Both the position numbers and the translations under genes were made by a program. From Vallitaleaceae bacterium 9-2 (GTDB lineage: Bacteria; Bacillota; Clostridia; Lachnospirales; Vallitaleaceae): DNA of 64,000 bases. This document shows positions 4,249-42,562 of the stretch, in pieces. The first letter of the stretch is position 1. Every line of letters begins with the position of its first letter. The notes under the pieces were generated by a model that made no database searches, was not told where the DNA came from, and was given only the letters and a program-made list of their open reading frames with translations. The stretch is taken from assembly GCA_038396585.1 (NCBI GenBank), contig CP121691.1, forward strand, positions 434,001-498,000, read 5' to 3'.

Positions 4249-5523
4249 ATGAAGAAATATATGGCGGTTTTACTAGTTATTGTAATGAGTATAGCATTTG
4301 TAGGTTGTGGAAATGATAATACACAAGGAACAGACACAGACACGCCTTCTCAAGAAGAAGCATCAGACACGCAACAAGAGCAATCAACAGGAGATAATGA
4401 AGGAACAGAAGAAATTGTTGTATGGATTCCAGGCGATGACGTCGAATATTCATTCTATTACAATATGTTCGAAAATTATAAGACAGCGATGGAAGCAGAA
4501 GGCAAAACATTCAATTATGTAATTGAGCAACAACCATGGGGTGATTACTTTACAAAACTTCCACTTGAAGTTAACAATGGACGTGGTCCTGATATATATT
4601 ATACACACACCGCATATATGGATACATTAGGTCCTATTTCTAGAGAACTAAATCTTTCAGAGGATATCCTAGGTCAATTATCGACAACAGATATGTACTT
4701 GGGAGAGAATAATAAACCACTTGTAATTCCAACAGTCTTTACAAGTATGATTATGTATGCTAATGAAAAAATCGTAGGAGATATGGACAAAGCCCCAACG
4801 ACATGGGAAGAATTATTTGCTGAAAGTTCAAAATATACAGATGCACAAAAGGGTATTATCGGTTACGACTATTCATTTCATATGTTATATGACTTGGCAT
4901 ATCAAGCAGGAGAGCGTTTAACGGATGAAAATGGAGCCGTATTTAGTGAAAAAGCATTGCAACAAGTTTTGGATTGGACAGATGCAGGGTACATGGATTA
5001 TTTGACTTATGGTCAAAATAGTCCGGAAGATTCTTTGTATCAAGATTCCGCAGCTTTTATCTACGGTGCCGGCTGGATGGAATTTTGGGCACCAGAAGAT
5101 GCACAGCTTTATGCTTTCCCTGTTCCGGGAACAACAACGGCTTTTGCTGAACTAACATTTGGAATCAGCAAAAATGTATCAGAAGCAAAATATGAGGTGC
5201 TTAATGATTTTGTTGAATTCATGCTAACGGATGAATCGACAGTTACAGATATTGTCAAAGGTAATTCCGGAGCGCCAAATAATACAACAGTTGATATTAC
5301 ATATGAAGAAGGTACAGCGGGACATGCGGTTTTACAAGCCTATAACTCCGGCGATGCGAAAGTTGTCATTGTACCAAGTAACTTGGAAAAAGTTTATAGG
5401 ACAATGCTTGAAGCGGCTTTAACAGGAACTTCAGTTGAAGATGCGATTGAACAAGCTAAGATGGATGCACAATCAATTGATGTAAGCAATTTGCACCAGA
5501 TGGAGCAGGTAGCTTTCCAATAA
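4249..5523 (+). CDS. extracellular sugar-binding lipoprotein of a CUT1 ABC importer
   Basis: A 424-residue family 1 solute-binding protein. The signal sequence MKKYMAVLLVIVMSIAFVGC has a lipobox (FVGC) that would be cleaved and lipidated at Cys20; a Gln/Asp/Thr-rich linker of about 35 residues follows. The mature domain begins with EEIVVWIPGDDVEYSF and shows the features of maltose-type binders (NNGRGPDIYYTH, APTTWEELF, FGISKN). It captures oligosaccharides at the cell surface and hands them to the two permeases encoded next. A hairpin separates it from the first permease gene, which usually allows the binding protein to be made in excess. No ATPase gene is nearby, so a shared MsmX-type ATPase is likely (inference). 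Confidence 0.93.
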   Translation: MKKYMAVLLVIVMSIAFVGCGNDNTQGTDTDTPSQEEASDTQQEQSTGDNEGTEEIVVWIPGDDVEYSFYYNMFENYKTAMEAEGKTFNYVIEQQPWGDYFTKLPLEVNNGRGPDIYYTHTAYMDTLGPISRELNLSEDILGQLSTTDMYLGENNKPLVIPTVFTSMIMYANEKIVGDMDKAPTTWEELFAESSKYTDAQKGIIGYDYSFHMLYDLAYQAGERLTDENGAVFSEKALQQVLDWTDAGYMDYLTYGQNSPEDSLYQDSAAFIYGAGWMEFWAPEDAQLYAFPVPGTTTAFAELTFGISKNVSEAKYEVLNDFVEFMLTDESTVTDIVKGNSGAPNNTTVDITYEEGTAGHAVLQAYNSGDAKVVIVPSNLEKVYRTMLEAALTGTSVEDAIEQAKMDAQSIDVSNLHQMEQVAFQ

Positions 5524-5533
5524 GGATAGTAAA

Positions 5534-5588
5534 GAAGAAAGGCAATCAAATACCGAGATGTTTAAATTGGTAGGCGTTGTCTTTCTTC
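5534..5588 (+). promoter_or_regulatory. intercistronic hairpin between binding-protein and permease genes
   Basis: GAAGAAAGGCAA (5534-5545) pairs with TTGTCTTTCTTC (5577-5588) with one G-U pair; inside, TACC and GGTA can pair as well. No run of T follows, so it is more likely an mRNA 3'-end stabiliser or processing site than a full terminator. Confidence 0.65.
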
Positions 5589-5607
5589 ATGAAAAGGAAG
5601 AAAAGTT

Positions 5608-6504
5608 ATGATAAAAAAACTCAGATATCATTTAATCGACGATCAAAAAAAATTCATTGTATTTGTAGCCATGTTTGGTCTCATTGTTTTTAATATAATC
5701 TTCTTCTTTATACCTTTAGGATATGGTATTATTGGAAGTTTCAGCAATTGGAATCCATTGCAAAATACGATGGAATTTACAGGGATCGATAATTATATTG
5801 CAATACTTCAGTCAAGTTTATTTAAGATTTCGCTGAAAAATACATTTGTGTTTAGTGGTTCACTGATTATTTTGCGAACAGGATTAGGTCTTGTCATTGC
5901 CGCAGGTCTATATTCATTAAAAAGGCACGATGGTATTCTTCGAAGTCTTTATTTTTTACCGGTGATTATGCCGATTGTGGCAGTTTCTATGGTATGGGAA
6001 TGGGTCTATCATCCACGGGTTGGACTTTTAAATATGCTGCTAGCCGCCTTTGGTTTTGCAGGAAAAAACTGGTTGATGGATAAGACGTTGGCCATGCCGG
6101 CAGTTATTGTTATGACCGCCTGGAAAGATATTGGATATGCAGTAGTAATATTTATGGCAGCCCTTATGAATATTCCCAGGAATCTATATGAGGCAGCCAG
6201 TATTGACGGAGCGAACCAATACAAGTGCTTTCGACATATTACTATACCCATGTTAAAACCAACCATTATTTTTATTGTCATTACATCGTTGATTTCGTAT
6301 TTTCAATCCTTTGTACAGATTTTTGTAATGACAGAAGGTGGTCCGGGAACGGCGACATATGTTATATCGTATATGATTTATAATGAAGCTTTTGAAAATT
6401 ATCGTTTTGGATATGCATCTGCGCTTTCGGTAATACTTTTTATCATTATTTTGATTATTACAGTCATTCAACTAAAAGTACTGTCGAGAGGTGGCGAATC
6501 ATGA
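5608..6504 (+). CDS. ABC sugar permease, MalF/UgpA type
   Basis: A 298-residue inner-membrane permease of the CUT1 family with about six membrane segments, beginning with FIVFVAMFGLIVFNIIFFFIP. The cytoplasmic EAA loop is clear: EAASIDGANQYKCFRHITIPMLKP, the coupling site for the ATPase. It pairs with the MalG-type permease whose start codon overlaps this stop (ATGA-type overlap at 6501-6504). Role: half of the transmembrane channel for the oligosaccharide bound by the lipoprotein at 4249. Confidence 0.95.
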   Translation: MIKKLRYHLIDDQKKFIVFVAMFGLIVFNIIFFFIPLGYGIIGSFSNWNPLQNTMEFTGIDNYIAILQSSLFKISLKNTFVFSGSLIILRTGLGLVIAAGLYSLKRHDGILRSLYFLPVIMPIVAVSMVWEWVYHPRVGLLNMLLAAFGFAGKNWLMDKTLAMPAVIVMTAWKDIGYAVVIFMAALMNIPRNLYEAASIDGANQYKCFRHITIPMLKPTIIFIVITSLISYFQSFVQIFVMTEGGPGTATYVISYMIYNEAFENYRFGYASALSVILFIIILIITVIQLKVLSRGGES

Positions 6505-7325
6505 AGATAGATAAGATAGGTGCGATTACACTCAAAGTTTGTTTGGTTATCGGTGGTTTGATTATGTTTCTTCCGTTTTTTTGGTTGATGCTCTCAACGT
6601 TTAAAACGAGTCGAGAGATTACTTCCGTACCGACTACATTTTTTCCACGAGGATGGACGATTGAAAACTATGTGGATATATTTAAAAGTTTTAACATAGC
6701 AAGATACTTTCTCAATTCTGTATTTTTGGCGACAGTGAAAACGGCAATCGGCATTTATACAAGCTTGCTATGTGGATATGTGTTAGCAAAATTTGAATTT
6801 AAGGGAAAAAAAATTATTTTTTCCATGATTTTATTTACTATGATGGTTCCATACTTAATTATGGTGATTCCTCTTTATCAAATGATAAATACAGTAAATT
6901 TAATTGATTCATATTGGGCAATTATTTTACCAACGCTTTATTCGTCATTTGGAATATTTATGATGAAACAGTATATGACAAGTGGTATTCCTAATGAACT
7001 TATTGATGCCGCACGAATAGATGGGGCAAGGGAATTTACTATTTTTCATAAAATCGCTGTTCCATTATCCGTGAATATGATATCAGCATTATCCATCTTT
7101 TTGTTTTTATGGAACTGGGAAGATTTCTTGTGGCCATATCTTGTGTTAAATACAAAAGACAAGATGCCCTTAGCTGTAGCCCTAAACATGTTTAGCGGAC
7201 AAAATACGGTCAATTATGGTGGTTTGTTTGCGGCGGCTGCAGTGACAATATTACCTGTGCTAATCATATACTTGTTTTTCCAAAAACGCTTTGTTGAAGG
7301 TGTATCGATGTCAGGAATAAAATAA
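6501..7325 (+). CDS. ABC sugar permease, MalG/UgpE type
   Basis: A 274-residue CUT1 permease with six predicted membrane segments (the first is LKVCLVIGGLIMFLPFFWLML). The EAA loop reads ELIDAARIDGAREFTIFHKIAVPLS. The motif TFKTSREI after the first segment is characteristic of the MalG subfamily. It completes the importer with the gene just upstream; 43 bases separate it from the GH2 gene, so importer and enzyme are probably co-transcribed. Confidence 0.95.
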   Translation: MKIDKIGAITLKVCLVIGGLIMFLPFFWLMLSTFKTSREITSVPTTFFPRGWTIENYVDIFKSFNIARYFLNSVFLATVKTAIGIYTSLLCGYVLAKFEFKGKKIIFSMILFTMMVPYLIMVIPLYQMINTVNLIDSYWAIILPTLYSSFGIFMMKQYMTSGIPNELIDAARIDGAREFTIFHKIAVPLSVNMISALSIFLFLWNWEDFLWPYLVLNTKDKMPLAVALNMFSGQNTVNYGGLFAAAAVTILPVLIIYLFFQKRFVEGVSMSGIK

Positions 7326-7368
7326 TAAAATGGATTAAGAATATATAGAGAGATATAAGGTGAATGTA

Positions 7369-10300
7369 ATGCAAGGAATAAATATATTGAATATCAATGA
7401 TTTTGATTGGAATAATTATAATGTTTTAGCGAAAAATCGCAAAGCAAGTCGGACCCATTTTTATTCATATGACAGTGAAGAAAGTGCGCTAACCTATGAT
7501 AAAAATCAGTCCAAGCATATCATGATGCTAAATGGAACATGGGACTTTAAGTGGTTTGAATCTCCGCTACTGGTTGATATGGAGCGCCTAGCAGATATTA
7601 AGGACTATACAACCATTGAAGTACCCAAAAACTGGCAGTTTGAAGGGCATGGAAAGTTTGTATATACGGATATGTGGTATGATTTTCCTGTTGATGTTCC
7701 TTATGTTCCAGTCAATAATAATGAGACAGGTGTTTACCATAAGACATTTAATTTAGAGCAAGAAGTGGCTTCAATTGCTATTCGATTCGAAGGCGTTGAA
7801 AGCGCTTTTCATTTATATGTCAACGGTAAATGTATCGGATATTCTCAGGGAAGTCGCTATCCCAGTGAATTTGACATCACAAAAGCTGTGCACAAAGGCA
7901 ATAACCACATACATGTTGTTGTATATCAATATTGTGATGGTTCATATTTAGAGGCTCAAGATATGTGGTGGCTTGGAGGAATTATTCGAGATGTGTATTT
8001 GATTAAGCGGCAAAAGCTTTCTATAGAAAACCTTGTGTTGGATCCGGATTTTGAGAGTCAAGAACAGGTAGGATACTTAAATACGGACATCCGATTAAGT
8101 GGAGAAGGACAAGTTGATCTTAAAGTATATGATGGAAAGAAGCTACTGACTCATCAGGAAGCTATCTCTTTAAATGGACAGATTGTTCTTGAAGGGGTTA
8201 TGCCTTGGACCGCGGAAACACCAAAGCTATATACATTGATTTTTACGTTGAAAGATGCCCAAGGAAAAGTGATGGAAGTCGTTCCTCAACGTATTGGCTT
8301 TCGACATATCGAAATTGATCAAGGTGTGTTAAAAATCAATGGAAAAAGAGTGTTGCTCAAAGGAATTAATCGCCATGAATATTCAGCAAAGACGGGAAGA
8401 GCTATAACGTATGAAGAGACAAAAAGAGAGCTTCAACTCATTAAACACAATCATATGAATGCAATACGAACGTCACACTATCCCAACAATCCTTTTTTCT
8501 ACGATTTATGTAATGCACTGGGGATTTATGTTATTGATGAAGCAGACCTTGAGAGTCATGGTCTTGAAGTTGTGGCGACAGATACACTTATGTGTGATGA
8601 CAAAACCTATGAGGCACTTTATGTTGACCGTATTGAACGAATAGTCGAACGTGACCGAAACCATGCATGTGTTGTTATGTGGTCACTGGGCAATGAATCT
8701 GCATACGGTGTGAATTTTAATGCGATGTATCAGTGGTGCAAACAACATGAACCGTCTAGACCCATACACTATGAAAGTGATGCGCATAATGCATCAGTGG
8801 ATGTATCAAGTACTATGTATTCAAGTGTAGGAAAACTTTATGAAATAGATACACAAGAGATTCAAATGCCACATATTTTATGTGAGTTTGGTCATGCTAT
8901 GGGCAATGGTCCGGGTAGTCTTAAGGAATATGTCGAACTGATTGAACAATCCAAGCGAATACAGGGGATGTTTATTTGGGAATTTAAGGACCAAGGTGTG
9001 TACTCAATCGATGCACTTGGAAAAGAAAGATTCTTGTTTGGTGGAGAGTTTGGAGAAGATTTTCATAATGGAAACTTTTGCATGGATGGAATGATAATGG
9101 CTAATAACCAAGCGACACCGTCCCTAGGAGAATATGCAAAATTAATTGAAAATATTCATATTCAACAATGGGACATTGGCGAGGGCAAGCTTAGGGTAAA
9201 AAACCGATTTGACTTTATGGATACTTCCATGGTGGATGTGACATATACTTTGCGCTATAATCAACAGGTCATCACCTCTGTTACACAGCCGATGCCGGTA
9301 ATCAAACCTCATCAGATAAGTCATATGCAGATTCCAACGAAAGTGTTAAACATTGATGCCATGCAATGGTGTTATCTTGAGGTAAAATTTGAATTTAGAG
9401 AGCCGATAGACGGATGGGAAGAAACCTATGTCCTTGGATATGATGTTAAGTTATTGCATGAACCTGTACAAGAACCAATCAACATCAGTGCGCAGCTTAG
9501 GGTCAATGAAAGTGGAAAAGATATTACTATTTACGGAGAAAATTTTGAACTAAGTATCTCAAAACGTGATGGATACATTTATGATTATCATGTGCAAGGG
9601 CTCAAGTTCTTTGACCAAGGTCCAAGTGTCAATTTTTTCAGAGCGTATACGGATAATGATGTCAAAAACGAAGAAAATTGGCAGGCAATGCATTTACACG
9701 CGATGACGATGAATGTCTATAACATGCAATATAGTGTGCTAGAGCATGAGGTGATTGTTCATGTTCAAGGACGTGTAGGAGCTAGAGGGCTTAACTGGGG
9801 GTGTGATACGAAACTTACATACCATATTTCCCAGGATGGATATATCCAGTTGCAATGGAGCGGTGGATTTAGCGGAAAAGCACCCAAACATTTGCCAAAG
9901 ATTGGTCTGCAAATGCAGGTGCCTAAACGATATGAGCAAGTGACATACAATGGATACGGACCGCAAGAGTGCTATTGCGATAGCAAAGCAAATGCTTATG
10001 AAGGCATTCATTCGATGCACTATTCAAAAATGAGTTTTCCCTATATGGTTCCTCAGGAAAATGGGAATCGTACAGGCGTAAGATGGGCGTCCTTGGCAAA
10101 TGCACAAGGAGGCATCCAGTTGGGAAGTCACCAGATGGATTTTAGCGTGCGTGATGTTTTAGATCAAGAACTGTATCAGACGATGCATCAAGTCGACCTA
10201 AAGCATGCCCCAAATCTTATCGTTAATTGTGACTTAATCAACTCCGGCTTGGGAAGTCAAAGCTGTGGACCGGATCGTATGCAACAATATAAGGCCCTTA

Positions 10301-26266: not shown

Positions 26267-27847
26267 ATGTATAAGTTATTGATTGTCGATGACGAGACCC
26301 TTGAAAGAGAGGCTCTAAGATATATTATCAATAATAGTGAACTTCAGATTATGGAGATTGCAGAAGCTGCGGATGGATTAAGTGCTGTTGACGTTGCGAA
26401 AAAGTTTGACCCGGATATTGCGATACTTGATATAAAGATGCCCGGTCTTGATGGCCTTGAAGTCGGACATATATTAAAAAAACAAAAACCTGAGATAAAG
26501 ATTATCTTTATGACGGCTTTTGACAGTTTTGAATACGCACATGAAGCTATAAAAATAGGTGTTGAGGAGTTTATTGTTAAGCCGGCATCCAAAGACAAGA
26601 CGCTAGAGATTATTGAAGTATGTATTCAAAAGCTTGAAAATGATAAGCGCCTTCAAGAACAAAAAGAAAACCTCGAAGTCAAATTAAATCAAATCTCGTT
26701 TTATCTTGAAAATGAGTTTGTCAATTCTGTAGCGAATGGAGAGATTGATGAACAAGACGCAGATGAATACCTAAAATTCATGGTTAATGAATTTATTGAA
26801 GGTTTTGGTGTGGTCGTTGAGATTGGGGTCCTAAATCAGCAAAAAGCCAATACTCTACACCGGAATATGATTAACAAACGCTTTGTCGATAAGCTGTCTA
26901 CACTTTTAACCGGCAATATTAAGTTTTTGATGAGTCAGTTAAAAAACACAATCTACATCCTTGTCTTTAATTATGAACCTGACGAGCGACTCAATATTAT
27001 CCGAACCATTGAAGATGAGATACATATGGTCAGTGAAGATGTGAATGAACAGTTAGATCTTCCGATATATTATGGATTTGGAGAGCCCTATAAGCAGATA
27101 TCCTCTCTCTGGAAATCCTTTGCACAAGCCAAGGCATCCGCTCGCAATATGTTGATTGACTTGGTTGATAATGCAGATGATGTAAGTGTAAATATCTCGA
27201 GTACGGACTTTAAAGAACATGAGCTTTGCGTCAGTATTTTTAATGGTAATGAAGAAGAGATGATTCGTATTGCAGATTATATTCTTGAAACCATCATCTA
27301 TGCCAATAATGATATGAATGCGATTCGCTTACGCCTTTATGAGTTCTTTATATTGCTTAATCGCTATTTAAACAAAGAAAGCCAGCTTAAGCATGCCGTA
27401 CCGGACCATATTTTTGATGACATTAAGGATATAGAAAGTCAAGGTGAAGCCAAACGCTACATTCACCGTTATCTATATGGTATACTTGAAGAAATCGAAG
27501 CCCAAAAGGACAATAAGACAACAACAGTATTGGATAAGGCCATCGAGTACATTGAGAAAAACTATGACCAGAGCATTACCCTTGAAGACGTCGCTTTTGA
27601 GATTGGTTTTAGCACATTTTACTTTGGGAAAATGTTTAAAAAGACATATAAGTCAAGTTTTACAGATTATTTGACTCATGTCAGGATAGCTAAAGCCAAA
27701 GACCTTCTTCGTATTGGACAGCTTACGGTAAAAGACATTACCTACCGTGTAGGGTATATGGATCCCAATTATTTTACCCGTGTATTTAAAAAATCTGAAG
27801 GGATTACGCCGACGGAGTACCGGACTAAATTTTTGAGCCCTGAATAA
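26267..27847 (+). CDS. response regulator, AraC output (YesN type)
   Basis: A 526-residue two-component regulator. The receiver domain occupies residues 1-120 with acidic pocket Asp8/Asp9, phosphorylation site Asp55 (AILDIKMPGLDG) and the conserved Lys in FIVKPAS. A middle helical region of about 300 residues of the YesN kind follows. The C-terminal AraC pair is at about 425-520 (ITLEDVAFEIGFSTFYFGKMFKKTYKS, TVKDITYRVGYMDPNYFTRVFKKSEG). No histidine kinase gene is adjacent. The TRAP transporter genes begin 119 bases downstream in the same direction and are the likely target. Confidence 0.93.
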   Translation: MYKLLIVDDETLEREALRYIINNSELQIMEIAEAADGLSAVDVAKKFDPDIAILDIKMPGLDGLEVGHILKKQKPEIKIIFMTAFDSFEYAHEAIKIGVEEFIVKPASKDKTLEIIEVCIQKLENDKRLQEQKENLEVKLNQISFYLENEFVNSVANGEIDEQDADEYLKFMVNEFIEGFGVVVEIGVLNQQKANTLHRNMINKRFVDKLSTLLTGNIKFLMSQLKNTIYILVFNYEPDERLNIIRTIEDEIHMVSEDVNEQLDLPIYYGFGEPYKQISSLWKSFAQAKASARNMLIDLVDNADDVSVNISSTDFKEHELCVSIFNGNEEEMIRIADYILETIIYANNDMNAIRLRLYEFFILLNRYLNKESQLKHAVPDHIFDDIKDIESQGEAKRYIHRYLYGILEEIEAQKDNKTTTVLDKAIEYIEKNYDQSITLEDVAFEIGFSTFYFGKMFKKTYKSSFTDYLTHVRIAKAKDLLRIGQLTVKDITYRVGYMDPNYFTRVFKKSEGITPTEYRTKFLSPE

Positions 27848-27966: not shown

Positions 27967-29064
27967 ATGAAAAAGAAAATTTTATCACTATTATTTGTAC
28001 TCGTAATGATGGTTTCAATTGCAGGTTGTGGATTACAATCTCCAACAGAAACAGAAGATGCGAACACAACAACTGATTCATCAACAACTGAAGAAGAGAC
28101 AACAACAGATGCAGAGGCAACTGAAGATACAACAGAAGCTGTTGAACCTGAAGTGACACTTGTTTATGCAGAAGTTAACCCATTAGATACGATTGTTGGA
28201 CAAACAGGTACAGCATTCAAAGAGAAAGTTGAAGAACTTTCAGGTGGAAAAATTAAAATTGATATCCAAGCAAGTGGTGTATTAGGTTCAGAAAATGACG
28301 TTCTTGATACAATGCTTGGTGGTGGTGGTACGATCGATATGTCTCGTATCTCAGCATTTGCACTTACAAGTTACGGCGGTGAAAAATCAAAATTATTATC
28401 CGTACCTTATACATTTGCAAACCGTGAGCATTTCTGGAACTTTGCAACTTCTGAATTAGCACCTGAATTCTTACTTGAGCCACACGAAAATGGTAGTGGT
28501 GTACGTGGATTATTCTACGGAGAAGAAGGATTCCGTCATTTCTTTACAACACAAGATATCAGTGGTATGGAAGACTTAGCTGGCATGAAACTTCGTGTGT
28601 CTAATGACCCAGTTATGAACGGAATGGTTAACGCTCTTGGCGCATCTCCAACAGTTGTTTCTTTTGGAGAATTATACTCAGCATTACAAACAGGTGTAGT
28701 TGACGGTGCAGAACAACCAATCGCAAACTACAAATCAAATGCATTCCCAGAAGTTGCACCAAACCTAATCCTTGATGGACATACACTTGGAGCGATTCAA
28801 GTTGTTATCACTGATGAAGCTTGGGATGGCTTAACAGCAGAGCAACAAGATATCTTAATGGAAGCTGGAGTATATGCATCTCAATTTAACAGAGAGATTT
28901 CTGAAGAAGCTGAAAATGAAGTATTAGCTGGTCTAATTGAAGATGGCGTAAATGTTGTTGAAGTAACTGACATTGCACCATGGCAAGAAGCATGTGCGGA
29001 AGTTATCGCTGAAGCAACAAAAGACAATTCTGAATTATATCAACAAATTCTTGATTTCCAATAA
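27967..29064 (+). CDS. TRAP transporter solute-binding lipoprotein, DctP family
   Basis: A 365-residue binding protein with a lipobox signal (MVSIAGCG, Cys at residue 20 or so) and a Thr/Glu-rich linker. The DctP fold signatures are present: FKEKVEELSGGKIKIDIQASG, GMKLRVSNDPVMNGMVNALGASPT, and SALQTGVVDGAEQPI. The Arg in KLRVS normally pairs with the substrate carboxylate, so an organic acid, such as a sugar acid or C4-dicarboxylate, is likely. The TRAP membrane subunits follow. With two pectin-related enzymes in the window, a uronate substrate is possible but unproven. Confidence 0.92.
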   Translation: MKKKILSLLFVLVMMVSIAGCGLQSPTETEDANTTTDSSTTEEETTTDAEATEDTTEAVEPEVTLVYAEVNPLDTIVGQTGTAFKEKVEELSGGKIKIDIQASGVLGSENDVLDTMLGGGGTIDMSRISAFALTSYGGEKSKLLSVPYTFANREHFWNFATSELAPEFLLEPHENGSGVRGLFYGEEGFRHFFTTQDISGMEDLAGMKLRVSNDPVMNGMVNALGASPTVVSFGELYSALQTGVVDGAEQPIANYKSNAFPEVAPNLILDGHTLGAIQVVITDEAWDGLTAEQQDILMEAGVYASQFNREISEEAENEVLAGLIEDGVNVVEVTDIAPWQEACAEVIAEATKDNSELYQQILDFQ

Positions 29065-29088
29065 AATCAAAACAATCTAAAATGATAG

Positions 29089-29123
29089 TCAAACACAAAG
29101 GAGGTGTCCTCCTTTGTGTTTGA
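29089..29123 (+). promoter_or_regulatory. intercistronic hairpin between dctP-like and dctQ-like genes
   Basis: TCAAACACAAAGGAGG (29089-29104) and CCTCCTTTGTGTTTGA (29108-29123) form a perfect 16-bp stem with a three-base loop. No T-run follows. It probably protects the upstream mRNA so that binding protein exceeds the membrane subunits. Confidence 0.75.
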
Positions 29124-29143
29124 ATGTATTAAGGAGGTAAAGC

Positions 29144-29671
29144 ATGCCAGCAATTTTTTCTAAGATTGATAAGATTAAACCGGCATATGATTTTACATAT
29201 AAAGTGGTTCTTTTTATATGTAAGATATTATTAATAATCGATATTTTAATTACCACAATGGCTGTTACAGGACGATATGTACCGTTTATTCCTGATCCAG
29301 CATGGAGTGAAGAGGTTGTATTAACATGTATGGCATATATGGCGGTTCTATCGGCAGCTCTAGCTATTCGTAGAGGTGCGCATATACGCATGACAGCATT
29401 TGATCGGTATTTGCCTAAGAGATTAATTCTTATCTTAGATCTTTTGGCAGATTTTGCAGTTTCGGCACTTGCAGTGGTTATGATTGTGGTAGGTTGGTCC
29501 TATGCAGTACAAATTGGTTCACGAGGAACCTACGTTAGTATCCCTAGCCTTTCAAGATTTTGGATGTATTTTCCAATTCCGGTTGCAGGGTTTGCGATGT
29601 TGGTTTTTGAAGTTGAATCAATATATAATCACATAAAAGGAATTTTTGTAGCGAAGGAGGATATAGCATGA
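29144..29671 (+). CDS. TRAP transporter small permease, DctQ family
   Basis: A 175-residue protein with four membrane helices, the first starting at VVLFICKILLIIDILITTMAV. The family motif region WSEEVVLTCMAYMAVLSAALAIRRGAHIRM is clear (DctQ usually has a W-x-E-E motif here). It joins DctM to form the Na+-driven transporter. ATG 29144 follows TAAGGAGGTAA. The stop overlaps the DctM start by four bases (ATGA). Confidence 0.93.
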   Translation: MPAIFSKIDKIKPAYDFTYKVVLFICKILLIIDILITTMAVTGRYVPFIPDPAWSEEVVLTCMAYMAVLSAALAIRRGAHIRMTAFDRYLPKRLILILDLLADFAVSALAVVMIVVGWSYAVQIGSRGTYVSIPSLSRFWMYFPIPVAGFAMLVFEVESIYNHIKGIFVAKEDIA

Positions 29672-30960
29672 GTCCGGAAAGTATAGCAATACTCATTTTA
29701 CTCGGTAGTTTTTTTGTTATGGTCTTCTTAAGATTTCCTATTGCATATGCAGTGGCTATTTCATCTGTACTGACATTGCTTTATCAAGGATTACCACTGA
29801 CAACTATTGGTCAACAAATGGTTAAGGGCATCAGCTCTTTTAGTCTTATGGCGGTACCTTTCTTCATTACCATGGGAGTACTTATGGGTGCGGGAGGTAT
29901 TTCAGATAAACTCATCGCGCTTGCCAATGCATTTGTTGGATGGATGCGTGGTGGTATGGCTATGGTTAACATCGTGGCATCGTATTTCTTTGGCGGAATC
30001 TCAGGTTCAGCGGCAGCAGATACAGCATCTCTTGGAAGTATTTTGATTCCTATGATGGTTGAGCAAGGATATGATGATGACTTTTCAACAGCAGTTACGA
30101 TTACATCTTCATGTGAAGGTCTTCTCGTTCCACCCAGTCACAACATGGTTATCTATGCAACAACGGCAGGTGGTATTTCTGTGGGAAGTCTTTTCCTCGC
30201 AGGTTATATGCCGGGGGCATTACTTGCTACAACGCTTATGATTGGTTCATATATTATCTCGGTTAAACGTAATTATCCCAAAGGTGACAAATTCAGTGTG
30301 ATTAACTTATTGAAGCAATTTGGTATTTCATTCTGGGCATTAGCAGCAGTCCTTATTGTTGTTGTTGGTGTTGTTGGTGGTGTGTTTACTGCGACGGAAT
30401 CTGCAGCGATTGCAGTTATCTACAGTTTGATTGTTAGTGTATTTATCTATAGGGGACTTGACTGGAAAGGTGTATGGAATGTACTGGAAAATTGTATTAA
30501 TACCCTTTCAATTGTCCTGATTTTAATTTCAACATCCAGTATTTTTGGATTTTTATTAACAAGACTTCATGTGCCTGAACTAGCGGCTAACGCAATAATT
30601 AATATTACAGATAATCCAATATTATTAGCACTATTATTGAACTTAATCCTTCTTGTTTTAGGATGTATTATGGATATGGCGCCAATTATTTTGATTGCAA
30701 CACCAATCTTGTTGCCAATTGCTACATCGATTGGAATTCATCCAATTCAGTTTGGTATTATGGTTATTCTTAACTGTGGTATTGGGTTATTAACGCCACC
30801 GGTTGGAGCGGTGCTCTTTATCGGTTCGGCAGTGGGGAATGTCGAGATGGAACGGGTCGTTAAGGCCACCTTGCCATTTTATATCCTCATGATTATCACA
30901 TTGTTACTTGTTACCTTTATTCCTCAAGTTAGCATGTGGCTACCGAATTTATTTGCGTAA
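29668..30960 (+). CDS. TRAP transporter large permease, DctM family
   Basis: A 430-residue protein with about 12 membrane helices that carries the transport site. Typical stretches are FLRFPIAYAVAISSVLTLL, GGISGSAAADTASLGSILIPMM, and PPSHNMVIYATTAGGISVGSLFLAGYMPG, plus the C-terminal GIGLLTPPVGAVLFIGSAVG. It uses a Na+ gradient with DctP and DctQ. The YcxB-like gene begins at the last base of this stop codon. Confidence 0.95.
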   Translation: MSPESIAILILLGSFFVMVFLRFPIAYAVAISSVLTLLYQGLPLTTIGQQMVKGISSFSLMAVPFFITMGVLMGAGGISDKLIALANAFVGWMRGGMAMVNIVASYFFGGISGSAAADTASLGSILIPMMVEQGYDDDFSTAVTITSSCEGLLVPPSHNMVIYATTAGGISVGSLFLAGYMPGALLATTLMIGSYIISVKRNYPKGDKFSVINLLKQFGISFWALAAVLIVVVGVVGGVFTATESAAIAVIYSLIVSVFIYRGLDWKGVWNVLENCINTLSIVLILISTSSIFGFLLTRLHVPELAANAIINITDNPILLALLLNLILLVLGCIMDMAPIILIATPILLPIATSIGIHPIQFGIMVILNCGIGLLTPPVGAVLFIGSAVGNVEMERVVKATLPFYILMIITLLLVTFIPQVSMWLPNLFA

Positions 30961-31447: not shown

Positions 31448-31490
31448 AAAACCGTAATTGGCATAAAGCTGATTGCGGTTTTATTATTTT
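31448..31490 (+). terminator. terminator of the TRAP operon
   Basis: AAAACCGTAAT (31448-31458) pairs with ATTGCGGTTTT (31472-31482) with one G-U pair, followed by ATTATTTT. Confidence 0.85.
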
Positions 31491-31553
31491 TGCGCAAAAA
31501 ATATGTTATAATAGTGCTTAGTATATGTTAATAAATCACAAGGAGAAAACGTG

Positions 31554-32981
31554 ATGAAAAAATGTAAAGTGATGGTATTACTTATTGTAGTTACGTTGTT
31601 ATTAATAGGGTGTCAAAAAGAGACGGGCAAAAAAAGTCCTCTGGATCCGAATAATCCAACGACAGTAGTTGTGTGGCATTATTATAATGGAAATATAAAA
31701 AATAAATTTGACGCGTTAATTGCAGAGTTCAATGAAACCGTGGGTATGGATATGGGCATTGTTGTAGATGCTCAAAGTCAAGGAGATGTTAATCAACTGG
31801 CTATGGCTGTGTATGAGTCAGCCAATGCAACCATTGGAGCTCCACCTATGCCAGATATTTTTGCGGCGTATCCGGATAATGCAATTCGCATTCATGATGT
31901 AGCAGACTTAGTTCCTTTAGAAACGTATTTTTCGCAGGAAGAATTAGGAATGTTTCGAGAAGAGTTTTTAGAAGAGGGGCGTTTTTTGGCGGATGAAAAA
32001 CTCTATATTATGCCGATAGCAAAATCGTCTGAAAACCTTTATGTGAATAAGACTTACTGGGAGCAGTTTGCCAAGGACAATAACTTGCAGCAAGATGAAC
32101 TTGCGACTTGGGAAGGTCTGTTAAGGGTCGCAAAGTTGTACTATGAAAAAACCGGCAAAGGTTTTTTTGGCATTGATTCCAATGCAAATTACATGCTTGT
32201 ATCGGCGATGCAATTGGGACAAGAAATGTTTGTATATACGTCCGATAATTCAGTGGAATTTAATCTAAGTGAAGAAATTGCACGTAAGATGTGGGAGCAG
32301 TTTTATATTCCCTATATTCGAGGATATTTTGTTAAGACCGGACGTTTTAGTTCAGATGATGCGAAGACCGGAACAGTACTTGCCTATACAGGATCAACCG
32401 CAGGAGCTTCATATTTTCCTTCGGAAGTTACATTTAGCCAAGCAAACGTCGAAGCGATTGAACCATTAGTGCTACCTTATCCATATTATGAAGAGGGGGA
32501 TGCGTATACGATGCAGCAGGGGGCAGGGATGTGTATGACAAAAAGTAATTACACACATGAATATGCTGCAGCACAATTCCTACGTTGGTTTACAGAGGTT
32601 GAACAAAACACCCGATTTGCCATTTCAACAGGATATATTCCTGTTAAAAAAGAAGCCCTTGATGAAGCGCTCATGTTAAAGGTGATGCAAGAAGAAGGCA
32701 TACAAAATCCAACCATCGAAGCGTCGATTCGTTCGACGGTAAAAATGATTGATACCTATCATTTTTATAACAATAAACCATTTAAAGGAAGTTATGAGAT
32801 GAGGATTTTGCTTGAGACGCATTTAGTCGATAAAGTGCATAAGGACTTAGCTCAACTTGAAGCATCTAATCTTGAAGAGGATGCGCGAGAAGCAAAAGTT
32901 CAGGAACTTATTTCAGAGGAAGCATTTAAACGGTGGTATCAATCACTTTTTGAAGAGGCAGAGCGAATTTTAGAATCGTAA
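31554..32981 (+). CDS. orphan extracellular solute-binding lipoprotein (family 1)
   Basis: About 475 residues. The signal has a lipobox (LLLIGC, Cys22 or so). The mature domain shows family 1 features: TTVVVWHYYNGNIKNKFDALIAEFNETVGMDMGI, FAAYPDNAIRIHDVADLVPLETYFSQEE, and IMPIAKSSENLYVNKTYWEQF. No permease or ATPase gene is adjacent. Instead the next gene, 12 bases on, encodes a membrane diguanylate cyclase with a large extracytoplasmic part. It may therefore be a sensor subunit rather than an import component (inference). ATG 31554 is preferred to GTG 31551 by spacing to AGGAG. Confidence 0.9.
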   Translation: MKKCKVMVLLIVVTLLLIGCQKETGKKSPLDPNNPTTVVVWHYYNGNIKNKFDALIAEFNETVGMDMGIVVDAQSQGDVNQLAMAVYESANATIGAPPMPDIFAAYPDNAIRIHDVADLVPLETYFSQEELGMFREEFLEEGRFLADEKLYIMPIAKSSENLYVNKTYWEQFAKDNNLQQDELATWEGLLRVAKLYYEKTGKGFFGIDSNANYMLVSAMQLGQEMFVYTSDNSVEFNLSEEIARKMWEQFYIPYIRGYFVKTGRFSSDDAKTGTVLAYTGSTAGASYFPSEVTFSQANVEAIEPLVLPYPYYEEGDAYTMQQGAGMCMTKSNYTHEYAAAQFLRWFTEVEQNTRFAISTGYIPVKKEALDEALMLKVMQEEGIQNPTIEASIRSTVKMIDTYHFYNNKPFKGSYEMRILLETHLVDKVHKDLAQLEASNLEEDAREAKVQELISEEAFKRWYQSLFEEAERILES

Positions 32982-32993
32982 GGATGGAATTAT

Positions 32994-35096
32994 ATGCGTA
33001 ATCGTCATACTCAAAAGAATTCAATTATTGTTAAGTTACCTGCGTTTGCAGTGACAATTATTATTCTCCAATCGATTTTTATATTGGCGGCGCTTATTTT
33101 TGGCGGCGTATTAAAGCAGGCGCGCTTAAATGCATATGAAACTTTCCAAAGTAAAGTGGAAGGGCGAAAAGCCTATTTAGAACTCGAAATGAAAAACCGA
33201 TGGATGAATATCGATCCGTATTTAAAACAGATTTCGGATGAGTTATCCAAACCCTATGAGAATGACTATATGTTGCTAGATAGCCTTTCGACCAATATCA
33301 TCGACATGCTTCGTGCGTCACAAGGAACAGGGGCATTTATGATCTTGGTGGATGCACCTATGGATGCATCGAGCCAAGAATATCCGGCACTTCACATTCG
33401 AGACTATGATCCACTGGCCAATGATTATGATAACAAAGATTTATATATGGTCACAGGACCTTCTGAAATTGCCAAAGCTTATAAGATTCCTCTAGATCAG
33501 ACATGGAGTTATGATTTAGAACTGAATGATTCCAATAATGCCTTTGTTAAGCGACCTTTGGAAAAGGCTGATTTGAGTTATGATTCCAAGCTACTAGGCT
33601 ATTGGAGCAACCCTTTTAAGCTTACGGAAAAGGACTTGGAGATTATCACGTATTCAATGCCTATTTTTGATGAACAAAGACAATTGCGTGGAATTGTTGG
33701 TATTGAGATAACGATTAATTATTTAACGCAGTTTTTACCGGCAACTGATTTGAAGTTAAAAGATTCCTTGGGATATATGTTGGTATATCAGGCGGATGAA
33801 GCATCACAACATGAGCCTATTATCATGGCAGGAGCGCTTCAAAAGCGCTATATTGACCAAGACGAAGAACTTGAGCTTGAACCTATAGTGGATGATGCGA
33901 CCATATATCGACTAAAAAATACTGATAACAATGATGATATTTATTTAAGCCTTGATAAGATGAACCTATATCGGCCACATACTCCTTTTGAGCAAGAATC
34001 CTGGTACTTGGTGGGGATGATGCATGAAAAAGATTTATTTGCATATGTTTATCAAGTTCAGATGATTTTGCTGATTGCATTTTTGGTTTCTTTGGTGTTT
34101 GGTATTTTGGGAGCCTATATTTTTAGCTATCGCTTTGCCAAGCCAATTGTTAACTTATCAAAAAGTGTCAGAGAAAATAGAATGACCCAGTGGCTACGCT
34201 TTGAAAAAACCGGTGTCGCAGAAGTGGATGAGCTGGCGCTTGCTATGGAAGAAGTCAGTCAGGAGCGAATCGATGTGGCATCACGACTCTCAAGGATTAT
34301 TAGTCTGTTGGATATGCCCATTGGCGCATTTGAAATAAGGGATAGTAGCGATCAAGTTCTTATGACAGAACAATTTATTGGTATCGTTGGAAAAAAAATC
34401 ACCAATAAGGAACGCTTTAAAGAATTTTTAGAGGAAATAACCCAAGAACCACTAGAAGGAGAACAAGATGTATATTATATCCATGAAAGTAAGCAGTGGA
34501 TTCGCCTAAAAAAAGTGGAGATGGGACATGTCCATATTGGGATTATTCAAGATGTAACACCGGATATTCAACAAAAATTGGCAATACAAAGGGAACGTGA
34601 TATTGACGGACTGACCCATGTCCTCAATCATCGTGCATTCAAAACGTACATGCATAAAATATTAGATGCCAAGCCACTAAAGACTTCGGCATTGTTAATG
34701 TTTGATTTGGACAACTTAAAAAAAATCAATGATTCCTATGGACATAAGTGGGGAGACCACTATATTCGAGAAAGCGCCAATCGACTTCAAAAAATTGCAG
34801 ATAGAGATCAAATGTTGCTTGGTCGACGTTCAGGTGATGAGTTTGTCGTTTTGCTCCATGGATTTAAAGATAAGAAAGAAATACGCGAAGTGATAAAGCG
34901 TTTTTATGAAGATATGAAAAAATCGCCTTTGGTTTTCCCGGATCAGACGATTCGACAAATATATTTTTCAGGAGGTCTTGTATGGATCCCGATATGGCCT
35001 AATGATTACGAGGCGTTGTTGCACCATGCCGACCAGGCGCTTTATATATCCAAGTATGAGAACAAAGGGACATTATCTGAATACGTAGAGAACTAG
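32994..35096 (+). CDS. membrane diguanylate cyclase with extracytoplasmic sensor domain
   Basis: A 700-residue protein. A membrane helix lies at about 17-40; residues 45-350 are outside the cell and resemble a Cache-type domain (EYPALHIRDYDP, RGIVGIEITINYL, with an ESWYLVGMMHEKDL end). A second helix is at about 355-380, then a HAMP-like coil (PIVNLSKSVRENRMTQW), a PAS-like segment and a C-terminal GGDEF domain. The loop is SGDEF (613-617), an accepted active form, with FDLDNLKKINDSYGHKWGD upstream. No inhibitory RxxD site is seen. It sits in one operon with a sugar-binding lipoprotein that may present ligand to it. Confidence 0.9.
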   Translation: MRNRHTQKNSIIVKLPAFAVTIIILQSIFILAALIFGGVLKQARLNAYETFQSKVEGRKAYLELEMKNRWMNIDPYLKQISDELSKPYENDYMLLDSLSTNIIDMLRASQGTGAFMILVDAPMDASSQEYPALHIRDYDPLANDYDNKDLYMVTGPSEIAKAYKIPLDQTWSYDLELNDSNNAFVKRPLEKADLSYDSKLLGYWSNPFKLTEKDLEIITYSMPIFDEQRQLRGIVGIEITINYLTQFLPATDLKLKDSLGYMLVYQADEASQHEPIIMAGALQKRYIDQDEELELEPIVDDATIYRLKNTDNNDDIYLSLDKMNLYRPHTPFEQESWYLVGMMHEKDLFAYVYQVQMILLIAFLVSLVFGILGAYIFSYRFAKPIVNLSKSVRENRMTQWLRFEKTGVAEVDELALAMEEVSQERIDVASRLSRIISLLDMPIGAFEIRDSSDQVLMTEQFIGIVGKKITNKERFKEFLEEITQEPLEGEQDVYYIHESKQWIRLKKVEMGHVHIGIIQDVTPDIQQKLAIQRERDIDGLTHVLNHRAFKTYMHKILDAKPLKTSALLMFDLDNLKKINDSYGHKWGDHYIRESANRLQKIADRDQMLLGRRSGDEFVVLLHGFKDKKEIREVIKRFYEDMKKSPLVFPDQTIRQIYFSGGLVWIPIWPNDYEALLHHADQALYISKYENKGTLSEYVEN

Positions 35097-35097
35097 G

Positions 35098-35352
35098 CTA
35101 TAGAATTTCTTTTTTGGATATGGAGGTCTTAACCTGAATATCGGGTATTTTTCCAAGCTTCCCGGTGAGGCTATTAATCTCATTAAGATCACCAACCACT
35201 GTAATACAAATGACAGAAAGACTTTCGTCGCTTAGGGGAAGGCCCATGCGACCACGGATGAGGTGCTTATAACTGGCAACTGTTTTATTAAATAAAAGTT
35301 GTGTTTCTTCGGGTTTTTCCAGGATAGCGCTAATGACAGCGACACGTTTCAT
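35098..35352 (-). CDS. TM1266-family iron-only hydrogenase system putative regulator
   Basis: An 84-residue single-domain protein. KRVAVISAILEKPEETQLLFNKTVASYKHLIRGRMGLP and SVICITVVGDLNEINSLTGKLGKIPDIQVKT closely follow the Thermotoga TM1266 family, a NikR C-terminal-domain-like (ACT-like) fold with no DNA-binding domain. The name comes from frequent location beside hydrogenase maturation genes; here none are present and it follows azlD. The function is uncertain. Its stop lies one base from the convergent diguanylate cyclase stop. Confidence 0.88.
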   Translation of the reverse strand: MKRVAVISAILEKPEETQLLFNKTVASYKHLIRGRMGLPLSDESLSVICITVVGDLNEINSLTGKLGKIPDIQVKTSISKKEIL

Positions 35353-40487: not shown

Positions 40488-40537
40488 AAGAAGCACGTCA
40501 ATGTACGTTTATTTATTCAATGAAAAAGGAATGGGTT

Positions 40538-42562
40538 ATGAAAAAGTCAGTGTTTATATTAACAAGCAATACGCGTCTAGTAAGTGATAGTGATGATGCG
40601 GTTATTTTGCGAAGTGTTAAGCGTATGTATCGCGACATGCAATTTATTCTTTCAAAGACGGATGGTACAACATCGACCATTCGTCTTATTCATGAAGCTG
40701 CAATTTCGCAAGAAGGATATTGTATTGAGTTTCCTAATGAGAAGACGATGCATATTAAAGCAAGGGATTCACTAGGATTTACTTATGCCTTACTCTTTCT
40801 GAGTGAACAGTTTCTTCAGATTACCCCTTTTTGGTTTTGGAACGATCAACAATTTCATAAAAAGACATCCGTAGATATTCCAATAATGACCTATACGAAC
40901 CCAAGGTACAATGTAGCTTATCGGGGTTGGTTTATTAATGATGAAGTTCTATTAGACACGTGGAAGGTGAATGGATGTAATGACTATCCTTGGGAGATGG
41001 TTTTTGAGGCACTCCTTCGCTGTGGTGGAAATATGACAATTCCAGGGACCGATAAGACATCGATAAAGTATAGATGTCTAGCATCTGACATGGGGCTTTG
41101 GATTTCCCAACATCACGCAGAACCTTTGGGAGGCGAGATGTTTTCACGGGTTTATCCAGAGCTTAATCCATCATTTGATGAACACCCGGAGCTATTTCGT
41201 AAACTTTGGAGAGAAGCAATTGCATCACAAAAAAATATGAAGGTGATTTGGAATTTAGGATTTCGAGGGCAAGGTGATTGTCCTTTTTGGGCAAATGACC
41301 CTAAATATGCCAATGATAAAGATCGAGGTGAATTGATAAGTCGCTTAATCCAAGAACAATATGAACTTGTCAAAGCCGAACAACCGGATGCAATCTGTTG
41401 TGTGAATTTATATGGTGAGACGATGGAGCTATATCGAGAGGGATGGATTGATCTTGCCCAAGAGATAATAAAAATATGGGCGGATAATGGATATGGCAAG
41501 ATGGTTTCTAGGCGCCAAGGGCTACACAATCCACGTGTTAATGCTGAACCTAAAAAAGGTTTGGGGCGCCAAGGCATCTACTACCATGTATCCTTTTATG
41601 ACCTTCAAGCGGCCAATCATATTACCATGGCAACCAATGCGCCAACCTTTTATCAAGAAGAATTAAAAAATGTCTTAGCCAATGATGGGAATAGCTATTG
41701 GATGATTAACGCATCGAATATTAAACCGCACATCTACTACTTAGACTTTATTGCTCGTATGTGGAGAGAGGGCGATATCGATGTGCATCAGCACCGAATG
41801 GCCTATGCAAACACATATTATGGAAAAGCAGCGGCAAAGACTATTGCAGATAGTCTTAAGGCGTACGGGGATGCGGCAGTTTTTTTTGGAGAGCATACCG
41901 ATGAGCATATCGGAGAACAATACATCAATCACAATACTCGGATTTTGGCATCGCAGTGGTGGTCAGGTACCGACCAAGCGGCAAGGGAGTTTTTGTGGGC
42001 ATCTAAGGCCCAAACTCTGGAAGAACAGATAGCTTTTTATAAACAAATTGCAAAAAAAGGTGTGGATAATTATACGGCATTTGAACGCCGCTGTGAATAT
42101 TATCGACTGGATCTAGAAGAAAGTGCGAAGCAATTATTTGAAGATAGTCTTATGCTTCATGGACGCATCTATGCAAAATGTTTTCAAGGAGCTTATGCGT
42201 TTTGCATTGCTTATGAAAAATACAGTCAGAAAGCATATCAAGAAGCCTTTTATTTTCTTGGACGTGCCGCAGAGTTTTATGGTCAGGCGTATGAAGCGAT
42301 GACCGATTGCGAACATGATAAGTGGATTGGATTTTATGCCAATGATTGCTTGACGGATATACGTCAAACCGCATGGATACTTAAAGAACTAATGGGATAT
42401 GTTCGAAACCTAGGCGATGGCCCCCACTTTTACAAGTGGAAAAGAGAGTTTATGTACTCGGAGCAAGATCGTAACATTATGTTGTTACTTGTACATGAAC
42501 GCCACATCGATAATGGGACATTATATCAATTTATGAAAGCAAGAGGAGGATTTACATGGTAA
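40538..42562 (+). CDS. GH115-like (alpha-glucuronidase family) enzyme, short form
   Basis: About 674 residues, cytoplasmic with no signal peptide. The GH115 catalytic region is recognisable: YRGWFINDEVLLDTWKVNG, VFEALLRCGGN, DMGLWISQHHAEPLGGEMF, and VIWNLGFRGQGDCPFW. Known members are longer and remove (4-O-methyl)-glucuronic acid from xylan or related chains; this one is shorter than the roughly 800-970 residues I recall for the family and may lack the C-terminal beta-domain. It is first in an operon with GH112 (7-base overlap) and GH105. ATG 40538 is preferred because AAAGGA precedes it. Family call is good, substrate uncertain. Confidence 0.78.
   Translation: MKKSVFILTSNTRLVSDSDDAVILRSVKRMYRDMQFILSKTDGTTSTIRLIHEAAISQEGYCIEFPNEKTMHIKARDSLGFTYALLFLSEQFLQITPFWFWNDQQFHKKTSVDIPIMTYTNPRYNVAYRGWFINDEVLLDTWKVNGCNDYPWEMVFEALLRCGGNMTIPGTDKTSIKYRCLASDMGLWISQHHAEPLGGEMFSRVYPELNPSFDEHPELFRKLWREAIASQKNMKVIWNLGFRGQGDCPFWANDPKYANDKDRGELISRLIQEQYELVKAEQPDAICCVNLYGETMELYREGWIDLAQEIIKIWADNGYGKMVSRRQGLHNPRVNAEPKKGLGRQGIYYHVSFYDLQAANHITMATNAPTFYQEELKNVLANDGNSYWMINASNIKPHIYYLDFIARMWREGDIDVHQHRMAYANTYYGKAAAKTIADSLKAYGDAAVFFGEHTDEHIGEQYINHNTRILASQWWSGTDQAAREFLWASKAQTLEEQIAFYKQIAKKGVDNYTAFERRCEYYRLDLEESAKQLFEDSLMLHGRIYAKCFQGAYAFCIAYEKYSQKAYQEAFYFLGRAAEFYGQAYEAMTDCEHDKWIGFYANDCLTDIRQTAWILKELMGYVRNLGDGPHFYKWKREFMYSEQDRNIMLLLVHERHIDNGTLYQFMKARGGFTW

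Follow-up and report, generated by a model that had tools for sequence, protein, structure and literature searches.

A conserved lipoprotein and membrane-sensor gene pair of Clostridia as a putative two-protein receptor with varied outputs

To our knowledge, few systems have been worked out in which a binding protein sets the activity of a cyclic di-GMP (c-di-GMP) enzyme. In Vibrio cholerae, the binding protein NspS associates with MbaA, a c-di-GMP enzyme of the membrane, and controls how active it is (PMC8967002), and homologues of this system are described from Sinorhizobium (PMC9993111). The available text of PMC9602780 lists chemoreceptors, kinases, c-di-GMP enzymes and Ser/Thr kinases among the receptors activated by solute-binding proteins (SBPs), and it presents BctC-BctE, in which the SBP gene adjoins the gene of a membrane receptor activated by the SBP, with BctC also found in a transporter operon. 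SBP-activated sensor kinases are treated in PMC11113362, and two adjacent genes form one outer receptor in the VtrA-VtrC co-component system (PMC9214523). A survey of sensor domains from the human gut microbiota considers that ligands may be missing because signalling passes through SBPs (PMC12415202). Here, we describe a lipoprotein gene and an adjacent membrane-sensor gene from Vallitaleaceae bacterium 9-2 (Bacillota; Clostridia; Lachnospirales), located in a stretch of 64,000 nucleotides, hereafter the window (assembly GCA_038396585.1, contig CP121691.1, positions 434,001 to 498,000, forward strand; coordinates below are those of the window). It seems quite probable that the two genes encode a single two-protein receptor, by which an outside ligand would set c-di-GMP through docking of the lipoprotein, the docking, the class of ligand and the direction of the response being the parts that we infer. 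No description of this cassette was found when open papers were searched in full text, a search that covers few subscription papers and gives weak evidence of absence.

The initial annotation had reported a lipoprotein gene lacking a permease or ATPase beside it and, 12 bases away, the gene of a cyclase with a large outside domain, and it interpreted the two as a surface sensor resembling LuxP-LuxQ in its logic. The open reading frame (ORF) calls placed both genes as reported, in the same direction and with a gap of 12 bases:

31551–32981, + strand: lipoprotein gene, SBP_bac_8, 476 aa, with a GTG start or an ATG start at 31554 (ORF; Pfam PF13416)
31602–31613, + strand: lipobox LIGC with Cys21 (sequence), the cysteine being invariant across 29 aligned homologues
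32994–35096, + strand: gene of the predicted membrane diguanylate cyclase, 700 aa (ORF; GGDEF and MCP-like_PDC_1 matches)
33045–33101, + strand: transmembrane helix 1, residues 18–36 (hydropathy)
33102–34064, + strand: outer Cache-like (dCache-type) sensor domain, residues 37–357, about 320 residues (weak PDC/dCache matches)
34065–34121, + strand: transmembrane helix 2, residues 358–376 (hydropathy)
34602–35063, + strand: GGDEF cyclase domain, residues 537–690 (Pfam PF00990)
34830–34844, + strand: active-site motif SGDEF, residues 613–617 (sequence and alignment)

The conservation of this pair was examined in samples of the family (22 genomes), order (392), class (391) and phylum (378), the class and order samples overlapping in genomes (among the matches, G000, the genome of the window, G107 and G150 are common to both). 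In the family sample, the same six of 22 genomes gave close matches to the lipoprotein (E at most 3.4e-81) and to the sensor (E at most 1.6e-77), with the two genes adjacent in all six, and weaker binding-protein matches (E 1e-10 to 1e-9) were found in two further genomes. At E ≤ 1e-72, a cut set after a gap between 9e-73 and 6e-44 had been noticed, the order sample gave 48 places with the lipoprotein, distributed over 47 genomes. A sensor of the same type adjoined the lipoprotein at 44 of these 48 places, always in the same direction, with the lipoprotein first in 38 cases and the sensor first in six. Three of the four unpaired loci are at or near contig ends: L109 and L107 are truncated by, or run up to, the end of a contig, and a sensor-like ORF in L116 starts at most 0.4 kb from one. 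The locus L135 (E 9e-44), at the edge of the family, contains a broken pair. In the class sample, the sensor was found within 0.5 kb of 39 of the 52 lipoprotein places (E ≤ 1e-45); the lipoprotein was present in 48 genomes, the sensor in 44 and both in 38. At the level of the phylum, 17 of 23 places had the sensor (the window's own place being left out), and the remainder comprised three places at contig edges, two with an ATPase and permeases (G792 and G833) and one with neither (L207). The pair is therefore conserved, the non-conservation that would have counted against the initial annotation not being observed.

The fourth unpaired locus of the order sample (L087, in G304) is not at a contig end, and its lipoprotein gene (6502–7944) lies 19 bases 3' of a gene for a CHASE2 and class III nucleotide cyclase protein (4650–6482), which is perhaps a further kind of partner.

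Trees were inferred for both proteins from 43 of the 44 pairs, the pair L003, from the window's species, having been dropped beforehand. The lipoprotein and sensor trees had 25 of 40 splits in common, whereas 500 shuffles gave at most two; these were quick trees, in which 11 of the 40 forks were left open. After removal of near-duplicates (35 of the 43 pairs retained), the correlation between the two sets of distances was 0.85, a value reached by none of 5000 shuffles (highest value 0.57). It was 0.69 when the LuxR group was left out (29 pairs, 0/5000), 0.89 within family f6 (15 pairs, 0/5000) and 0.88 within f18 (7 pairs, 2/5000). The shuffles leave species descent in, and the agreement within and across families argues against descent alone. 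Furthermore, the pair of the window and that of its congener join G202 and G181, from family f2, rather than genus g8 of their own family, and the LuxR group mixes f6 and f18; both trees agree in this. Given this joint departure from taxonomy, host descent alone is insufficient, and the two genes seem to travel together.

Close relatives keep their gene order anyway, and the two genes might on that account be adjacent by chance or common descent, with no functional link between them. However, the pair is kept across different families, in both gene orders (38 versus 6) and between differing flanking genes, and a matching non-taxonomic signal is carried by the trees of both proteins. We consider this explanation hardly credible.

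What is conserved beside the lipoprotein is the outer part of the sensor. The pair of transmembrane helices was present in 43 of the 44 paired sensors, the remaining one being cut at its N terminus, and the sensor profiles A3 and A5 recovered the outer domain beside the SBP in homologous loci. The outputs behind this outer unit differed, with GGDEF in six of the 44 sensors, GGDEF-EAL in 18, a hybrid histidine kinase in 14 and a LuxR-type output in six (18 sensors were scanned by Pfam and the others were typed with profiles built from such members). The kinase type consists of hybrids of HisKA, HATPase and receiver domains, some retaining a recognisable GGDEF remnant and others not, and the LuxR type of a membrane-tethered LuxR/GerE DNA-binding domain. 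In the phylum sample, 15 of the 17 paired sensors were of the LuxR form; in the class sample, outputs were assigned by a profile check for a few loci. Parsimony required seven changes of output on the lipoprotein tree and six on the sensor tree, against at least 16 and 14, respectively, in shuffles, and the outputs are therefore clade-bound yet have changed several times. Since relatives carry EAL, kinase or LuxR outputs, the conserved partner of the lipoprotein is the outer sensor, the cyclase being one output among several, and the pairing outlasts changes of the output domain. The coupling of the lipoprotein to a diguanylate cyclase thus holds for this genome but not for the family as a whole. 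On balance, we favour the view of a receptor cassette widespread in Clostridia and also present in further members of the phylum, in which a dedicated lipoprotein and a two-helix Cache-like sensor are kept together while the output has been swapped about six to seven times (parsimony, order sample), and which would wire the same outside solute to unlike responses in different species.

The output in the window is a predicted diguanylate cyclase, with a GGDEF domain match at E 7e-30, an intact active-site motif and conserved surrounding residues. The residues RDQM stand at what we take to be the place of the RxxD inhibitory site, a site that is not required of diguanylate cyclases. The large outside domain claimed for this protein comprises about 320 residues between the two predicted helices, and its assignment to the Cache type is tentative: MCP-like_PDC_1 was above the cut-off (E 1.2e-7) and dCache_1 below it, and a profile search of the PDB gave weak matches to Cache-type chemoreceptors (E 0.009 and 0.02). 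Four matches to the c-di-GMP-I riboswitch (RF01051) were found in the same genome (G000:C1 1282100, 1438277, 1438447 and 2887787), two of them in tandem, and c-di-GMP therefore has readers in this organism. An Rfam scan of the whole window gave no match at gathering scores, and thus no c-di-GMP riboswitch within it.

The lipoprotein combines a binding-protein fold (SBP_bac_8, E 8e-28) with a lipoprotein signal, an N-terminal hydrophobic leader and lipobox. Its closest solved structures in the PDB profile search were 7bvt (a sugar ABC binding protein), UgpB/UspB and maltodextrin-binding protein; glycerophosphodiester-type binders were included among the matches, and none of the 26 was named as a polyamine binder. 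The SBP_bac_8 family also contains polyamine binders (PMC9602780). Judging from its family, the ligand is most likely a sugar or a sugar derivative. The residues W42, Y45 and D209, among others, were invariant in the 29 aligned lipoproteins, and since these were drawn from all four output types, the invariant residues suggest one class of ligand. The lipoprotein is more conserved than the sensor, with 28–40% identity to the window's protein for 26 of the 28 further sequences in alignment A4, against 14–30% for 24 of the 26 further sensor sequences in alignment A5.

Among described systems, NspS-MbaA is the closest analogue: in the pair described here, the binding-protein gene is adjacent to, and co-inherited with, the gene of a membrane GGDEF(-EAL) protein, as would be expected of a receptor of that type, and the GGDEF-EAL form of MbaA is the commonest output in our order sample. 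The likeness is one of design. NspS binds polyamines in the periplasm of a Gram-negative organism, whereas the lipoprotein described here belongs to Clostridia and is nearest to sugar and UgpB-type binders; moreover, sensor relatives here also carry kinase or LuxR outputs. As regards LuxP-LuxQ, the layout of a binding protein and a membrane sensor acting as a single receptor stands. However, the output of LuxQ is a histidine kinase, LuxP comes from a family of binding proteins other than that of the lipoprotein, and the window's protein has GGDEF only, with no kinase output, although a hybrid kinase is present in 14 of the 44 relatives; LuxP-LuxQ was therefore set aside as the closest relative in favour of NspS-MbaA. 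The adjacency of SBP and receptor genes is the same as in BctC-BctE, but the pair described here has no transporter and its output varies on a constant outer unit. VtrA-VtrC is likewise an adjacent gene pair, and the LuxR-type relatives found here are also membrane-tethered DNA-binding proteins; the co-component here has a binding-protein fold, which VtrC is not known to have.

The orphan status of the lipoprotein was also borne out. In its own genome, the lipoprotein gene is separated by 24.4 kb from the closest match to an ATP-binding cassette (ABC) permease (BPD_transp_1). Such a permease is found within 3 kb at 38 of the 43 SBP_bac_8 places, the window's lipoprotein being among the exceptions. 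In the order sample, CUT1-type permeases were found in the retrieved stretch for one of the 48 close homologues, against 19 of 20 control binding proteins that this search had returned at E values of about 1e-20 to 1e-25. The profiles of permease and ATPase genes underlying these counts were started from L136 and extended in rounds over every retrieved ORF, so that they largely represent the controls' own CUT1-type genes and miss other types of transporter, and several of the retrieved stretches are short owing to contig ends. All controls except L159 had two permease genes and an ATPase gene close by. Homologues of the lipoprotein are thus not regularly found beside permease genes, and co-conservation of the pair without transport genes, proposed in the initial annotation as a check, is supported by adjacency at 44 of 48 places and permeases at a single one.

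Another SBP_bac_8 lipoprotein of this genome (L137, 9033–13832; G000:C1 at about 940–945 kb) has no permease closer than 21 kb. Its gene directly precedes those of a YesM-type kinase and of an AraC-type response regulator, and similar pairs were seen in G006 and G012.

Several observations weigh against a receptor of this kind, and they concern both the transporter and the constancy of the pair. The single homologue with permeases, L105 (G128), has two CUT1-type permease genes about 3 kb upstream of the sensor and one on the opposite strand, one of the permeases being confirmed by Pfam. Eight of the 48 retrieved stretches contain an ABC-type ATPase gene of some kind without such permeases, which may or may not belong to a sugar importer. 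L136 (E 6e-44), just under the order cut, encodes a transporter protein with adjoining permeases and ATPase, as do G678, G792 and G833, relatives recovered with a broader profile; these four mark where the lipoprotein family borders ordinary importers. In the genome of the window, 26 of 64 permease clusters have no SBP_bac_8 gene within 5 kb, a count that covers this binding-protein family only, and the lipoprotein may therefore serve a distant permease. The lipoprotein might then serve an ABC importer encoded elsewhere, and the neighbouring cyclase might directly sense something else through its Cache domain. Cache domains commonly bind ligands directly, and sensors of the identical type without an SBP exist. 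Such a division of labour nevertheless leaves unexplained the adjacency at 44 of 48 places, the agreement between the trees and their joint departure from taxonomy, and the control SBPs keep their permeases adjoining; we consider it unlikely. The lipoprotein could also have a dual role, passing its ligand on to an importer encoded at a distance and also, in the loaded state, reporting to the sensor, so that signalling would be tied to uptake, as with the binding proteins of chemoreceptors. There is precedent for SBPs that both serve transporters and stimulate receptors (PMC9602780), and the permeases of L105 lie near the pair. However, CUT1 permeases were absent from 47 of the 48 retrieved stretches and a co-inherited pair favours a dedicated receptor, and a dual role accordingly appears improbable to a similar degree.

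The remaining observations of this kind are partners found alone. The order sample contained 14 sensors without an adjoining lipoprotein, namely 12 of the GGDEF-EAL type (L119–L127, L141, L142 and L076), one LuxR-type (L128) and one kinase-type (L129), and for ten of the 12 GGDEF-EAL sensors the genome gave no match to the lipoprotein at E ≤ 1e-20. In a tree including ten of these 12, nine grouped with paired sensors, those of g8 and of L112 (support 94), and L126 was unplaced; this nesting with paired sensors reads as loss of the lipoprotein, and the sensor is able to evolve to work without it. The lone GGDEF-EAL sensors of family f12 are L119–L123, L141 and L142, and several of these adjoin shikimate-pathway-like genes, judged by eye. 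In the class sample, three of the 13 lipoprotein places without a sensor were at or near contig ends (G410, G414 and G643:C10, with G414 unsure), nine of the 52 had neither a sensor nor an adjoining CUT1 permease (six from family f39, two from f89, and G756, located after a carbohydrate phosphorylase gene) and the thirteenth was the transporter protein of G678, with an ATPase and two permeases. The lipoprotein can thus persist without the sensor, as in the f39 and f89 relatives. An f39 subfamily (L169, L170, L172–L174 and L176), from which the sensor is absent, has a recurrent neighbourhood with SpoVS (identified by Pfam for L169), and in L169 a weak permease match with its own binding-protein-like gene lies about 4 kb further on. 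Conversely, nine sensor places of the class sample had no listed lipoprotein partner: G499 and G562 had a lipoprotein fragment at the contig edge, G410, G414, G555:C20, G650 and G664 were on contig ends or had the mate on another contig, and G666 and G697 (the latter broken) were without a lipoprotein. In G228, a truncated binding protein is in frame with a LuxR-type sensor (L130, 6460–8580) and resembles a deletion product; its binding-protein part lacks the middle and its topology would be odd, and this fusion was not counted as proof of contact. Finally, the single-sequence structure models of the two window proteins had mean predicted local distance difference test (pLDDT) values of 43.1 and 40.1 and, being unusable, were not used.

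The reading of the pair as a two-protein receptor is based on the layout of the genes, the lack of nearby permeases, co-conservation, the agreement between the trees, the intact catalytic motif and the reuse of the outer unit, and, as far as sequence goes, the surface sensor initially proposed is supported. The lipoprotein, anchored at the outer face of the membrane, would capture a small solute and, in its loaded or unloaded form, dock on the outer Cache-like domain of the sensor. The signal would then pass through the second membrane helix and alter the activity of the GGDEF domain, and an outside ligand would thereby set the level of c-di-GMP.

The genes around the pair in the window, which vary among homologous pairs, include an operon for a tripartite ATP-independent periplasmic (TRAP) transporter and the DctP lipoprotein belonging to it (27967–30960). 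The transporter is of a class other than the ABC importers, and the operon stops 591 bases 5' of the lipoprotein gene. A small YcxB-like gene and a hairpin stand between this operon and the pair; since the hairpin intervenes and the flanks differ in homologues, a link of the TRAP operon to the pair was set aside. Terminator-like hairpins were not enriched in the region (two, against 2.9 expected in shuffles):

31448–31482, + strand: terminator-like hairpin with a 15-pair stem and then a T-rich tail (consensus match only), ending the upstream TRAP/YcxB unit
35132–35146, + strand: weak terminator-like hairpin with a 6-pair stem, 3' of the cyclase gene and not above chance

An AraC-type response regulator gene (26267–27847) lies ahead of the TRAP genes, with no kinase gene directly adjoining, and AzlC/AzlD genes are found downstream of the pair on the opposite strand. 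A protein of glycoside hydrolase family 115, presumably a glucuronidase family, is encoded at 40520–42562 and has no obvious connection to the pair. The closest named record was from Clostridiales bacterium UBA4039 (class Clostridia), with a lipoprotein 99% identical, and its near-identical contig (locus L003) was the sole relative obtained in a search of genome contigs; no relative of the pair was found on viral contigs among the 59 pattern stretches examined.

Many Clostridia carry the cassette, in most cases without the transporter that usually complicates tests of this kind of signalling. Its natural output swaps, between cyclase, GGDEF-EAL, kinase and DNA-binding forms, bear on how one ligand event reaches unlike outputs, and the ligand may be found through whichever output is the easiest to read.

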